From Ruminobacter sp. (lineage in GTDB: Bacteria; Pseudomonadota; Gammaproteobacteria; Enterobacterales; Succinivibrionaceae): a stretch of 64,000 bases of DNA. Under the pieces are notes generated by a model. That model did no database searches, had not been told where the DNA came from, and saw only the letters and a program-made list of their open reading frames with translations. A program made the translations under genes and the position numbers. The DNA lies in the NCBI GenBank assembly GCA_017940385.1, contig JAGAYS010000005.1, positions 1 through 64,000 of the forward strand. The letters run 5' to 3'. Shown here one piece after another: positions 17,336-32,544 of this stretch. Within the stretch, counting starts at the first letter, position 1, and every line of letters starts with the position of its first letter.

Positions 17336-17947
17336 TCAGGAATGTCCTCTTCTGAAACTCTCAAGTTCTCCCGGAGTATTGATGTTTACGTAGTTGAAAA
17401 AACACTCTTCCGGAACATCGGCAGTGCGGAAATCCGTCTGCATGATGATGTTTCTGAGACGATAATCTCCCCTTCTTAAAGACTCCTCAAAGATTCGGCA
17501 TACCCTGACGGAATAAACCGCTGACACGGGCTGCCACACATCTCCGGTTACCGGAACCAGCACATCCTCACCGTTATAAATGGAAACCAGTCTTTTAGCC
17601 TCGGCCTCAGAAAAATCAGGCATGTCACAGCCCACAAAAAGCACTGCATCGGCCAGGGTTTTACGGAGTACCGAAAGAATGCCTCCGGCAGGTCCGCACT
17701 CCGGATAATCATCAGTTACGGATTCAAAACCGTCAATCGGATAATGCTGACTGACGTTTCGTGATACGTAACGGTACGGAAAGAAATCCAGACTTCTGCA
17801 CAGTTTTTCCAAAAAGGTTGTGTCGGCATCATAGGAAAGTCCGGCCTTGTCTCTTCCCATACGAAGTGATTTTCCGCCTGCAAGAACCGCCACGCCAATC
17901 TTTCCGTCAAAACATCCCGGCATCCCCGCCTTTACGTCATTCCGCAT
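17336..17947 (-). CDS. mobA: Molybdenum cofactor guanylyltransferase
   Basis: A 203-residue enzyme that attaches GMP to molybdopterin to make the guanine dinucleotide form of the cofactor, used by formate dehydrogenases of this class. The nucleotide-binding signature VLAGGKSLRMGRDKAGL lies near the N-terminus, and VGCDMPDFSE contains the metal-binding Asp. The ATG at 17945-17947 overlaps the end of moaC by 11 bp; an upstream frame extension is rejected because it runs deep into moaC. It is the last gene of the cofactor operon. Confidence 0.9.
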   Translation of the reverse strand: MRNDVKAGMPGCFDGKIGVAVLAGGKSLRMGRDKAGLSYDADTTFLEKLCRSLDFFPYRYVSRNVSQHYPIDGFESVTDDYPECGPAGGILSVLRKTLADAVLFVGCDMPDFSEAEAKRLVSIYNGEDVLVPVTGDVWQPVSAVYSVRVCRIFEESLRRGDYRLRNIIMQTDFRTADVPEECFFNYVNINTPGELESFRRGHS

Positions 17948-28638: not shown

Positions 28639-29049
28639 GGGCTATACTCCTTACTGACGGAAATAACCGGGACTTACGACGGAACCGGCTCAGGAACAGA
28701 GTCCTGACATTCATTAAAGTATAACACACTGCAGCCATAATCCCGGAAATACGTGTTCCGAATCCGCTTCTTTTTCATAACGCTTTTCAGGTTATCTCAA
28801 TATAAATACAAAACAGGTTATTTTATTGTTTTATTGTTAAATTTATTTAAAACCGCAGGTTAATTTTCTGTTTTTTAACGGATTATTAATTGATCACCGT
28901 CTGATATGTTCACGTTTAAAGGATATGTCACGGTGTCTCTGCTTATACTTTTTAGTATAAGAAATATCCGCTTCCGCCGGGATACCTGTCCCTTTTCATT
29001 TCCGGACAGACGGGAACCGCGGCGCACGACGGACACATGGAGAACTGAA
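28639..29049. other. Divergent AT-rich intergenic region of about 410 bp
   Basis: Upstream of the propeptide-like gene. The centre, 28,800-28,880, is strongly AT-rich. It contains the perfect palindrome listed separately at 28942-28961. A frame start at 28906 is rejected in favour of the signal-peptide start at 29050. Confidence 0.5.
28942..28961. promoter_or_regulatory. Perfect inverted repeat, candidate operator
   Basis: CTTATACTTTTTAGTATAAG is an 8-bp perfect inverted repeat with a TTTT centre, about 90 bp before the start of the propeptide-like gene. The position suits a transcription factor site for the secreted-protease genes. It could instead be a small hairpin in the leader. Confidence 0.4.
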
Positions 29050-29520
29050 ATGAAACTAACGGTCACGTCAATCATAATATCCGTTACGGCACTGCTCTTC
29101 TGCACGCCGGCCGATGCCGGCGTTCACAGAAGAACCGCTCAGGATATTATCACCGAAAACTTCAGAATCATGGATGCGGCCGAAGCCGAAGTTCCTGCAA
29201 ATGAAGTGCTCGGCACTCTCGGCAACAGGATCGTCGTAACTGGAGAAAGAGCTCCCGATCATCTGGCATTTGTCAAAACCTCCACCGATCACAACTATAT
29301 CATTACCGGAAAACTGCTGGTACGGTGCGGTAAAAATGACTGCAGTCTGCCTCCCAATCTGCATATCAGTAAACTGAGTACCTCGGTTTATGAAATAACC
29401 GCGGAAACCTATGACCAGTGGGAAAAACTCATGACCGAACTGCCATACGGCAACGGCGTCAGACAGGTATCCCCGTCATACCTTCTCGGAACATCCACGT
29501 CACATAAACATCCGAAGTAA
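29050..29520 (+). CDS. Exported protein resembling a free-standing subtilase propeptide (I9-like)
   Basis: A 156-residue protein with a clear signal peptide (about 1-23, ending FCTPADAG). The mature part ends with YDQWEKLMTELPYGNGVRQVSPSYLLG, which has the pattern of the end of I9-type subtilisin propeptides (a helix, then a V-x-x-V-x-P strand). A subtilase gene follows on the same strand. The subtilase's own N-terminal part does not look like an I9 domain, so this protein may act in trans as its folding helper or inhibitor. The ATG at 29050 has GGAG upstream. Similarity is by eye and weak, so exported hypothetical protein is the fallback. Confidence 0.65.
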   Translation: MKLTVTSIIISVTALLFCTPADAGVHRRTAQDIITENFRIMDAAEAEVPANEVLGTLGNRIVVTGERAPDHLAFVKTSTDHNYIITGKLLVRCGKNDCSLPPNLHISKLSTSVYEITAETYDQWEKLMTELPYGNGVRQVSPSYLLGTSTSHKHPK

Positions 29521-29677
29521 CGACAACTCCGGAGCATTAACGCAAACACTGCGAATAATAACAATACATAATAATTTAATAACAAATATAAGAACCTGGA
29601 CAATGTTAATACGTAAAACCCAACCTTAGGCAGGACAATACGGCCATCAGACGCCCTGCCTGAAGGAGGAACCAGAA

Positions 29678-30139
29678 ATGAACAAAGCACATATATTCCG
29701 CTTACGCTTATTAAGTGTTCTCCTTGTTTCAGCCGTGACGGCATGCGGTGGCGGCGGTGGCGGCGGAAGCCCTTCCGCGGGCACCAGGATCGCCGAACCT
29801 GAAGGCACACTGGATTTTGCGGAATACGGAGACCTGTACAGCGGCAAACCGTACCTTATCAGATACCCGGCAGCGGCTGATGCCGTCAAATCCGCAGACA
29901 CTCCGGAAATATATGCCGAATATGGCGAGATAAGCCGTGTTCATCCCTACACCGGAGAACCTGCTCCGTCAGGCTCGGTATACTACTACGTTCCGGAAAG
30001 CGTGCTTAACGGCTTGTCATCACCGTATTCCCTGACTGAAAAGTTTACGATAGTCTACGGAGACGGAAGCCGAAACGTGTTCACCCTTGAATTGGGAGCA
30101 AAATCTCCGGACGGAGATCCCCTCTTTGCGGAACAGTGA
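29678..30139 (+). CDS. Lipoprotein N-terminal part of a subtilase, ended by in-frame TGA
   Basis: A 153-residue product with a lipoprotein signal (LLVSAVTAC) and seven glycines after the lipid Cys. GAAGGAGG-like sequence precedes the ATG. The remainder is a small beta-rich region ending GDPLFAEQ before TGA at 30137-30139. The frame continues unbroken past this TGA into NLKNVGQNPFGVDVSP and the protease domain. In S8 convertase-type proteases this junction reads DPLF-x-x-QWHLKNTGQ, so the TGA stands exactly where a conserved Trp is expected. The two parts therefore derive from one 731-residue lipoprotein subtilase. Confidence 0.8.
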   Translation: MNKAHIFRLRLLSVLLVSAVTACGGGGGGGSPSAGTRIAEPEGTLDFAEYGDLYSGKPYLIRYPAAADAVKSADTPEIYAEYGEISRVHPYTGEPAPSGSVYYYVPESVLNGLSSPYSLTEKFTIVYGDGSRNVFTLELGAKSPDGDPLFAEQ

Positions 30140-30151
30140 AATCTTAAGAAC

Positions 30152-31873
30152 GTGGGACAGAATCCGTTCGGTGTAGACGTCTCCCCGGTTGAGGGAATAG
30201 ACATTAACGTTATCCCGGCATGGCACATGACCGATGCCAACGGAGAAAACATCACCGGAAAAGACGTGAAGATTGCCGTTCTCGACACAGGCATAGATTT
30301 CAGACACGAGGATCTTTCGGACCGCAGGTACACGCCTTCGGTAAAAGCAGCGTTCATAAACCAGGAGTTTTCCCTCACCGACGTCATCTATAACGAAACA
30401 ATGCTTCACGGCACAAAGGTTGCCGGTATTCTGGCAGCAACCGCAGGTAACGGCAAAGGTGTGCGCGGCATCGCGTACAACGCGAAACTCACGGCGTACC
30501 ACAAGGACAACACCGTCTTTTCCTATCTGACGAAACATCAGGACATAAATACAATCAACGCCAGCATTGCCCTGGACAGCAGTTACGTGTATTCACCGGA
30601 CAAGGAAAGCTATTTCGAGGCCATGTTTGAAAACGGCATACCGTTCATCAGGGCAGCGGGAAACGAATACACCGGCGTGTCATTCCATGACGGAACCGTC
30701 TATCCTCTGAACTGTGTTTCCGTAAAGGCGGACTGTCAGTTCAACCAGACCTCATCCTTCAACAGGGGAAGATACGTAATTACCGCCGGAGCACTTAACT
30801 CCATGGGGAAAAAGTCATCATACGGTTCCACGGGCGCCCATCTGTGGGTAACCGGAATGGGCGGAGAATTCGGATATAACGGAAATAAGAATTCATCTGC
30901 AGCAATCGTAACCACCAAATACAGTCACGAGCCTTACGAGTATCAGGATCTCAGGGACAGAGACACTCCATGGAGAAAGAATAAGGATAAATATAAGGAT
31001 CGCCGTTACTATACCCATATCATGAACGGTACCTCCTCAGGAGCTCCTACCGTCACCGGTGTTTCGGCGCTGATCATTCAGGCAAAACCGGACGTTACGG
31101 TACCACAGATAAGATATATCCTGGCATCAACCGCAAACAGCGACACCAGTCCGGGGTGGTCAGGTCTGAAATATTCAGCGGTGAAATCAAAGGTGTCAGC
31201 CTACGGCGGCAGTACGATAACTCATGATCCGGGATGGTTCACCAACGGTGCAGGGCTGAGATTCTCCAACCGCTACGGTTTCGGAGTGGTTAATGCGGCT
31301 GCGGCAGTATCAAAGGCTCTTTACTGCGAAGAGGACGAGTACTGCTCCAGAAGAGCGGAGCTTCCATCAGATTACGTTAGCACCAATGACACTCCGTGCT
31401 CATTGGATGACGGAGGAAAAAACATCACATGCAGCTTTACGGATTTTGAAAGCACGGATAACTACGGGCCGTCACGTCCACTCATGGAGATAGAGGACAT
31501 CGCCGTCAACTTAAGTTCCCTCGTCTATGACGGTAATACGGACTCAGGCAAATGCGTACAGGCCGCAAATGCGAATCAGAACGGTATAGCCCATGCCAAC
31601 AGTCTGCTGCAGATTGAAATGAAATCTCCTGAGGGAACAATGTCCCTTATAAAGTCCGTTTATGCCAACTGGGACTTCAATGCCCGCACCATGCATAATG
31701 AAAGGCCGTCATTCAGCTATGACAGTAACTTTATGATATACACATCCGCCTTCTATGCGGAACGTGCATCCGCTGACGACTCTTTCATTCTGAACATAAA
31801 GAGTGAATGTCCGATAGACGTGGACAACCTTAACAGAAGCATCCGCATAAGAATAGGAGGATATGCACTCTGA
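30152..31873 (+). CDS. Subtilisin-like (S8) serine protease with P/homo B domain, split by TGA
   Basis: The catalytic part of the protease begun at 29678. Counting from the GTG at 30152, the triad is Asp45 (AVLDTGID), His86 (LHGTKVAG) and Ser295 (NGTSSGAP), with oxyanion Asn171 (AAGNEY). Residues from about 395 to 573 form a P/homo B-type domain (LLQIEMKSPEGTMSLIKS), as in kexin-like and many secreted bacterial subtilases. If translated only from this GTG it would lack a signal peptide and stay cytosolic, and no good ribosome site precedes the GTG. So function requires readthrough of the TGA or the gene is a recent pseudogene. The ORF downstream shows no further damage. A hairpin terminator follows. 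Confidence 0.85.
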   Translation: MGQNPFGVDVSPVEGIDINVIPAWHMTDANGENITGKDVKIAVLDTGIDFRHEDLSDRRYTPSVKAAFINQEFSLTDVIYNETMLHGTKVAGILAATAGNGKGVRGIAYNAKLTAYHKDNTVFSYLTKHQDINTINASIALDSSYVYSPDKESYFEAMFENGIPFIRAAGNEYTGVSFHDGTVYPLNCVSVKADCQFNQTSSFNRGRYVITAGALNSMGKKSSYGSTGAHLWVTGMGGEFGYNGNKNSSAAIVTTKYSHEPYEYQDLRDRDTPWRKNKDKYKDRRYYTHIMNGTSSGAPTVTGVSALIIQAKPDVTVPQIRYILASTANSDTSPGWSGLKYSAVKSKVSAYGGSTITHDPGWFTNGAGLRFSNRYGFGVVNAAAAVSKALYCEEDEYCSRRAELPSDYVSTNDTPCSLDDGGKNITCSFTDFESTDNYGPSRPLMEIEDIAVNLSSLVYDGNTDSGKCVQAANANQNGIAHANSLLQIEMKSPEGTMSLIKSVYANWDFNARTMHNERPSFSYDSNFMIYTSAFYAERASADDSFILNIKSECPIDVDNLNRSIRIRIGGYAL

Positions 31874-31890
31874 CGAATGTACGCAGCCCG

Positions 31891-31938
31891 AAAAGGCGGC
31901 AGTGACGGAAGCATTCATAACCTCACTGCCGCCTTTTA
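31891..31938 (+). terminator. Rho-independent terminator of the protease gene
   Basis: AAAAGGCGGCAGTGA pairs with TCACTGCCGCCTTTT, a perfect 15-bp stem. Confidence 0.8.
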
Positions 31939-32021
31939 CCGCAAAGCCCGTGCAGACCAAACGCCCTTCCGGATAATCATTTCCGCACGTAATTTAATTT
32001 TCCGTTTGAAAAAATAAAATA

Positions 32022-32050
32022 TGTTTTATACAATATATTTGTGTACAACA
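32022..32050. promoter_or_regulatory. Candidate OhrR operator / ohrR promoter
   Basis: An imperfect palindrome (TGTT...TACAA-TATAT-TTGTG...ACA) lies 18 bp before the ohrR start in an AT-rich promoter region. OhrR proteins bind TACAATT-rich inverted repeats and are commonly autoregulated, so this is the obvious operator candidate. Confidence 0.5.
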
Positions 32051-32067
32051 TATTTTGGAAATCAAAA

Positions 32068-32544
32068 ATGAAAGACGATTACCGCGATGCACTGAGGCTT
32101 TCAAACCAGCTGTGCTTTCCGCTCTATGCGGCGTCAAGAAACATCACCGGACTTTACGTGCCGCTGCTGAAGCCTCTGGGACTCACCTACACCCAGTATA
32201 TTGTCATGATGGTGCTGTGGGAAAAGGATGGCATTTCCGTTTCCGGAATCGGTGAAAGACTGATGCTGGACAACGGCACGCTGTCCCCGCTGCTCAGAAA
32301 AATGGAACAGTCAGGGCTTATCGAAAGACACAGAAGTCCGGATGACGACCGGGTGGTGGTAATCACCCTTACCGACAAAGGACGCGAACTTCGGGAGAAA
32401 GCTGCCGACATTCCTGCAAAAATGGGAAAATGCGTAAATCTTTCACCGGAAAAAGCCCGCATGCTGTACGACCTGCTGTATGAGATTCTTCATGATCAGG
32501 GATACGCCGGAAATCTTTCCGACAATAATAATTCAGGGAAATAA
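32068..32544 (+). CDS. ohrR: MarR-family organic peroxide sensor/repressor
   Basis: A 158-residue winged-helix repressor. NQLCFPLYAASR contains the conserved peroxide-sensing Cys16 of OhrR; the recognition region is LDNGTLSPLLRKMEQSGLIERHRSPDDDRVV. OhrR loses DNA binding when organic hydroperoxide oxidises this Cys. The ATG at 32068 is preferred over an upstream start because the sensing Cys then falls at its usual position. The glutathione peroxidase gene follows after 33 bp, so the operon is probably derepressed by peroxide. The usual ohr gene is absent and is replaced by a glutathione peroxidase. Confidence 0.9.
   Translation: MKDDYRDALRLSNQLCFPLYAASRNITGLYVPLLKPLGLTYTQYIVMMVLWEKDGISVSGIGERLMLDNGTLSPLLRKMEQSGLIERHRSPDDDRVVVITLTDKGRELREKAADIPAKMGKCVNLSPEKARMLYDLLYEILHDQGYAGNLSDNNNSGK

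Follow-up and report, generated by a model that had tools for sequence, protein, structure and literature searches.

A conserved tryptophan codon replaced by an in-frame TGA in a lipoprotein subtilase gene of Ruminobacter: a probable recent nonsense lesion

A gene of the subtilase family in a Ruminobacter genome is interrupted by an in-frame TGA, which stands exactly where the relatives carry a conserved tryptophan. We consider it likely that a nonsense mutation, now fixed or polymorphic in the sampled strain, has recently struck one member of a family of surface lipoprotein subtilases that Ruminobacter carries in several copies; a recent nonsense mutation was the first alternative named in an initial annotation of the window (the whole 64,000-nucleotide stretch analysed here), and it has become the best explanation. 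The stop is present, the ortholog in another genome and four paralogs in the same genome are intact, the gene shows no other decay, and UGA serves as a normal stop in this organism. The course of events would probably begin with one mutation altering two neighbouring bases, which would yield the TGA and a His-to-Asn change in the following codon jointly. The ribosome would then halt at UGA and free a 153-residue lipoprotein without the catalytic domain, and the exported protease would be lost or be produced only at the level of background UGA misreading. Such a loss is presumably tolerated, since four other uninterrupted members of the family remain in the genome.

The interrupted gene and its family

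The source genome, from what we take to be a rumen organism, is a draft of 2.45 Mb in 70 contigs with a completeness of 93.9%, in which the window corresponds to contig 69. It was compared with genomes chosen as one per species, namely a genus set of 4 and a family set (Succinivibrionaceae) of 56. The features of the locus are as follows.

29050..29520, + strand: small secreted-protein gene, candidate partner of the protease (homologs lie 5' of protease copies)
29663..29669, + strand: ribosome-binding site AAGGAGG of the protease gene (anti-SD match)
29678..31873, + strand: protease gene, a lipoprotein-subtilase split by TGA (open reading frames and alignment to relatives)
29678..30139, + strand: N-terminal piece of 153 codons, closed by TGA; lipobox VTAC (assigned by eye) followed by some 130 residues
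30137..30139, + strand: in-frame TGA, then an Asn codon (alignment columns with Trp and then His in relatives)
30140..31873, + strand: catalytic piece, Peptidase_S8 (PF00082), 577 open codons and its own TGA stop
30152..30154, + strand: GTG, the closest possible in-frame restart, with a 4-base anti-SD match and no signal peptide by eye
30284..30286, + strand: catalytic Asp codon (VLDTG), intact, aligned to 3hjr
30407..30409, + strand: catalytic His codon (LHGT), intact, aligned to 3hjr
31034..31036, + strand: catalytic Ser codon (NGTSS), intact, aligned to 3hjr

Around the TGA the frame reads GDPLFAEQ, stop, NLKNVGQNPFG. The catalytic piece belongs to Peptidase_S8, with a match to PF00082 at E 2.8e-32 and 112.6 bits against a curated cut-off of 21.8, and the motif alignment to 3hjr places the complete Asp-His-Ser triad of subtilases in it, while the Pfam search of the N-terminal piece (29678..30139) matched no family. 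That two open segments follow each other in the same frame is weak evidence of one gene, as six pairs of such neighbours, each segment of at least 140 codons, occur within the window; it is the intact relatives, which read through without a break, that identify 29678..31873 as one interrupted gene. It had been claimed that past the stop an exported protease has no suitable place to start, and this agrees with our survey: among the eight in-frame starts within 200 codons past the TGA, the anti-SD match never exceeds 4 bases, and none opens a signal peptide as judged by eye.

Homologs of the small gene are present directly upstream of the 10 further Ruminobacter protease copies that were checked, 2 of which are broken. 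Its product, which has no Pfam match at 0.001 and no convincing sequence match in the PDB, may be a folding partner or an inhibitor of the protease. In the copies L003 and L019/L022, long repeats of the GGNTGNDN type separate the lipobox from the N-terminal domain.

The family has 4 to 6 matches per genome in the four genomes of the genus, and matches at E 1e-60 or better occur in 12 of the 56 Succinivibrionaceae genomes. Fourteen copies of the genus align from residue 2; thirteen, the ortholog included, have one unbroken frame each, of 713-884 codons, and the fourteenth is L021. The source genome (G000) itself holds four uninterrupted copies (L002, L003, L004 and L006), with lipoprotein and protease parts in one frame. 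The G000 counterpart of L014, a copy of the Ruminobacter genome G002, is found in two parts: the N-terminal part lies beside an IS110 transposase frame (PF01548) at a contig end, and the C-terminal part sits at the end of another contig.

L048:1-1361 (contig C11) and L047:12380-14056 (contig C2): the two parts of the split copy in G000
L050:7294-9432: the intact gene in G002

We infer that the two parts were once one gene, as the intact G002 gene covers both, the break falling at bases 807-808 of the compared stretch, and the neighbours are common to the two genomes. An IS110-family element thus seems to have interrupted a second family protease of G000. In the genome G003, the copy L016 carries a frameshift after the QWH motif. 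With the 23 residues missing from L013 (see below), loss of family copies is ordinary, and one further copy struck by a nonsense mutation fits with it. As a separate observation, the frames of L021 (G002:C10:1-1336), L020 (G003:C124) and L033 (G050:C147) end early, at 422, 425 and 539 codons, and may be further broken copies or assembly edges, L021 lying near a contig end. A mosaic of identity between the two species across protease genes was also seen when L047 was compared with L050 and L025, with 99.1% over 1.8 kb, 98.0% over 1.2 kb and 83-92% elsewhere, which suggests recent exchange or gene conversion within the family, or cross-binning.

Conservation at the stop and the age of the change

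The family alignment comprises 30 rows, i.e. the window, with X at the stop, and 29 relatives; L007, L020, L023, L036 and L037 were left out. The stop column holds 25 W, 4 gaps and the stop of the window, so that tryptophan is found in 25 of the 25 relatives having a residue, although these rows are partly non-independent, L019 and L022 being one gene and L002 and L021 being nearly identical. The gaps belong to L005 and L016 (C-terminal frame alone aligned), to L018 (a contig-edge copy) and to L013, which has an in-frame loss of 23 residues; QWH is also present in the N-terminal parts of the broken copies L016 and L007. The next column has histidine in the same 25 relatives, gaps in the same number of rows as before (4), and asparagine in the window. 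The initial annotation was accordingly right in placing an in-frame TGA at a conserved tryptophan of a subtilase, and it missed the second, adjacent change. Its further proposal, that misreading by tRNA-Trp would simply restore the native protein, finds no support on this point, since such a readthrough restores the tryptophan and leaves the neighbouring invariant histidine changed to asparagine.

The two bases that differ from the ortholog at the stop and at the next codon are adjacent, and for this reason one tandem mutation may have produced both the TGA and the asparagine. In the window-ortholog pair, 46 adjacent double differences are observed while about 32.5 are expected, and across codon boundaries there are 22 against 17.8, a general excess in this pair; a single tandem event is attractive without being proved. 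As to the surrounding segment, L013 (G003:C103) is otherwise open over 741 codons, and its 23-residue in-frame loss spans PLF..QWH..GQNPF; either the protease may work without this segment, or L013 may be a failing copy.

The ortholog (L008/L024, in RUG10948, another Ruminobacter genome) is intact and 87% identical across the catalytic part, so that against this one ortholog the window gene carries a disabling change. Further signs of a pseudogene, namely relaxed selection or additional decay, were found neither in gaps nor in dN/dS nor in invariant columns. The two genes align over 730 codons with zero gaps. The dN/dS is 0.255 before the stop and 0.158 after it, at a pairwise dS of 0.465; three genes nearby have values of 0.11-0.32, a range that includes those of the protease pair. 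Among 54 family-invariant columns, the window departs at two only, the stop and the asparagine, and keeps 52 of the 52 others, while the ortholog departs at none. At the 148 genus-invariant columns there are 2 window-only departures (again the stop and the asparagine), 1 ortholog-only and 4 shared; outside the two changed columns the window thus matches the consensus at 142 of 146, and the remaining 4 are also altered in the ortholog. With the threshold lowered to 90% conservation in the genus (210 columns), the departures number 3 in the window only, 1 in the ortholog only and 15 in both.

Polarised differences fall nearly evenly on the two lineages, with 32 window-derived, 31 ortholog-derived and 15 unresolved from the stop onward, and 13, 11 and 7, respectively, before it; the branch lengths in the tree are 0.102 for the window and 0.066 for the ortholog, the window being somewhat longer. 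Were the catalytic part free to decay, zero losses in 142 conserved columns would set a rough 95% bound of 0.009 substitutions per site on the time of neutral evolution, against the dS of 0.465 to the ortholog; the estimate takes 2.3 nonsynonymous sites per codon and treats the columns as fully constrained. Further decay is expected to be undetectable if the lesion is very young. The absence of gaps, the low dN/dS and the absence of any other window-only loss at invariant columns together point to a stop that is very young, that stems from an assembly error, or that is tolerated in part even now.

Reading of UGA and the tRNA-Trp of the family

In G000, UGA is a normal stop. The initial annotation had argued that the genetic code is unchanged, with TGA used as a regular stop elsewhere in the window, and both statements hold. 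The gene prfB was located and carries the UGA frameshift site CTT-TGA-C, a site described in PMC5289835. The stop of moaC is TGA (17937-17939), a modC-like open reading frame, below the modC cut-off, is also terminated by TGA, and so are 83 of 315 sampled G000 open reading frames. We further scanned two genomes, 489 kb of G000 (window included) and 807 kb of G002, by pairing each mechanical open reading frame of 150 codons or more with its best match; some of the pairs are therefore antisense or paralogous. When G002 frames were compared with G000 DNA, 149 of 541 had a qualifying match, giving 57,567 aligned residues with 473 Trp, and in this partial scan the protease stop is alone among them as a TGA at a Trp column well inside a frame. 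The reverse scan, in which 154 of 315 G000 frames were matched and 486 Trp compared, had no interior TGA at a Trp column. Raw stop cells numbered 10 in G000 and 17 in G002, mostly close to the starts of frames. Trp-to-TGA cells numbered 2 per genome, these being position 153 of the window gene and three cells among the first 22 aligned residues; the latter three, likely but unproven start extensions, were discounted.

In G000, 49 tRNA genes were recovered, none with a UCA anticodon, and selA was found in none of the four draft genomes of the genus. A search of Rfam over 28640-32100 gave two matches, both under the gathering score and neither a recoding element, and no SECIS. The RNA fold at the stop is nothing unusual (z-scores of 0.39 and 0.79), i.e. 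it offers no stimulatory structure, which is not always required for readthrough. A 23-base pattern search of viral contigs returned 0 matches.

The context of the stop is UGA-A, which counts as leaky; PMC5289835, citing Engelberg-Kulka 1981, describes a UGA with A as its next base as prone to tRNA-Trp misreading in E. coli. The tRNA-Trp gene of G000 itself was not found in searches of this 93.9%-complete draft. In its relatives, A24 and a G27.A43 mismatch, which leaves a 4-bp anticodon stem, are carried by the tRNA-Trp of G001 and G002 and by one of two in G003, the second, tandem copy of G003 having G24 and a full stem; positions here are counted along sequences that share the 76-base length of E. 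coli tRNA-Trp. For the family, 30 loci among L038-L041 and L090-L116 were parsed into 28 sequences (no row came from L098, L101 and L105, and L038 gave two). The Succinivibrionaceae tRNA-Trp(CCA) has A24 plus the mismatch in 23 of the 28, the mismatch only in 3, A24 only in 1 and neither in 1, a count that leans toward the query, as the loci are best matches to a Ruminobacter tRNA (with a match in 50 of 56 genomes).

Both features have been linked to readthrough in PMC13092985, where G24A in tRNA-Trp is reported to facilitate UGA readthrough and an overexpressed 4-bp-stem tRNA-Trp to raise it about 2.5-fold in E. coli. The same source gives A9C and/or G24A in 2,414 of 3,438 bacterial 4-bp-stem tRNA-Trp genes, and it counts 2,677 standard-code genomes carrying only the 4-bp-stem form, for which reason this type of tRNA alone proves little. 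Taken with the UGA-A context, the A24/4-bp-stem tRNA-Trp of the relatives makes some UGA misreading in Ruminobacter plausible. Misreading of this kind would render the lesion less than complete, and would be no evidence that the stop has a use. A strongly permissive system is disfavoured by the lack of other interior Trp-to-TGA changes.

Explanations weighed and comparison with known systems

The preferred reading, a young nonsense lesion, has to face the fact that a dN/dS of 0.158 and 577 open codons downstream resemble a gene under selection; youth explains them, and tolerated readthrough would explain them too. That the stop falls exactly on a Trp codon, in a UGA-A context, in a family where the A24/4-bp-stem tRNA-Trp is common, likewise speaks for a tolerated leaky stop, at which tRNA-Trp would misread UGA, expression would merely be lowered, and mostly the short lipoprotein and some full-length protease would be made. 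We regard this as unlikely. The low dN/dS downstream, the context known from PMC5289835 and the tRNA features of 23 of 28 parsed sequences, associated with readthrough in PMC13092985, are in its favour, but the only ortholog found has a sense codon at the place, so that the conservation of the stop expected of functional readthrough is missing, and the adjacent invariant histidine is lost too. A permissive tRNA should moreover leave further interior Trp-to-TGA changes, of which there are none in the 473 and 486 Trp columns, the RNA fold is ordinary, the tRNA-Trp of G000 was not found, and a 4-bp-stem tRNA by itself proves little, given its occurrence in standard-code genomes (PMC13092985). Of the two-product leaky stop put forward in the initial annotation, the mechanism therefore keeps some ground (UGA-A and the family tRNA-Trp), and the idea of a purposeful system does not, being at odds with the ortholog and the lack of RNA structure. 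An error of assembly or consensus in the draft, either a pair of miscalled adjacent bases or strains collapsed into one, is rather improbable as well. It would suit the adjacency of the odd bases, their being the sole departures among 54 family-invariant columns, and a draft of 70 contigs at 93.9% completeness; against it, the site lies about 30 kb inside a contig of 84 kb, a collapse with paralogs is unlikely as these are only 40-60% identical, and a real tandem change is unremarkable in a gene pair where adjacent double differences are frequent (46 against about 32.5).

Two further readings deserve very little weight. A purposeful arrangement of two genes, one for a lipoprotein and one for a protease that starts anew at the GTG of 30152, would be suggested by the position of this codon, 13 bases past the stop codon and in the same frame, but it has a weak ribosome site, no signal peptide by eye follows it, and the full-length relatives are one frame; we hold this to be highly improbable. 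Recoding is extremely improbable. Its one attraction is that the position is exactly a Trp codon. UGA as Trp genome-wide (table 4) is rejected by prfB with its frameshift site, by the normal TGA stops, by the missing UCA anticodon and by the lone interior TGA among the sampled genes, and a selenoprotein by selA in 0 of 4 draft genomes and by the absence of a SECIS or other recoding element among the Rfam matches.

What remains is probably an ordinary young gene lesion, and it calls for caution: a conserved tryptophan turned into a stop, with the sequence past it still conserved, is the look of a recent nonsense mutation that decay has not yet followed. We think it doubtful, but worth stating, that the Succinivibrionaceae tRNA-Trp with A24 and a 4-bp stem naturally misreads UGA, in which case a UGA at a Trp codon would be a tolerated low-expression allele and not a knock-out. 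If this tRNA truly leaks, a premature UGA could not be read as loss of function in these rumen genomes; there would then be a standard-code bacterium in which one kind of nonsense mutation is nearly silent, with the protease as a live example.

A literature search on Ruminobacter together with subtilisin had work on a streptococcal bacteriocin as its sole match. Among eukaryotes, Ir75a of Drosophila sechellia is said to be a pseudo-pseudogene whose premature stop is read through. It would be the model if the protease proved to be made, the Ruminobacter case being bacterial and known from its sequence alone. For the protein, the closest solved sequence relative of the catalytic piece is the Aeromonas sobria protease ASP (PDB 3hjr and 3wqb; E 2.4e-26), with the triad aligned, whereas the Ruminobacter protease is a lipoprotein and has an extra stretch at its N terminus. 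The small gene beside it recalls the ASP/ORF2 pair described in PMC5638518, although it lies upstream of the protease and ORF2 downstream of asp; a relationship to ORF2 was considered and dropped, as it has no sequence support and the profile of the small gene has no convincing match to a PDB chain.

Most of the family tRNA-Trp genes parsed, with their G27.A43 mismatch and A24, belong to the larger class of 4-bp-stem tRNA-Trp(CCA) treated in PMC13092985, whose main text does not contain the words Succinivibrio, Aeromonadales or Gammaproteobacteria. The A24/A9C class was set aside in that study, and readthrough by the Succinivibrionaceae tRNA-Trp is putative. As for stops of this kind in general, Belinky et al. 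2021 (PMC7918605) argue that in-frame stops persist mostly on a polymorphism time scale and that readthrough of them may occur. Unlike that study, ours concerns one genome, and no second species was seen to share the stop at the orthologous codon; like the cases reported there, it presents a nonsense codon in a conserved gene with dN/dS below 1, and it is probably short-lived.
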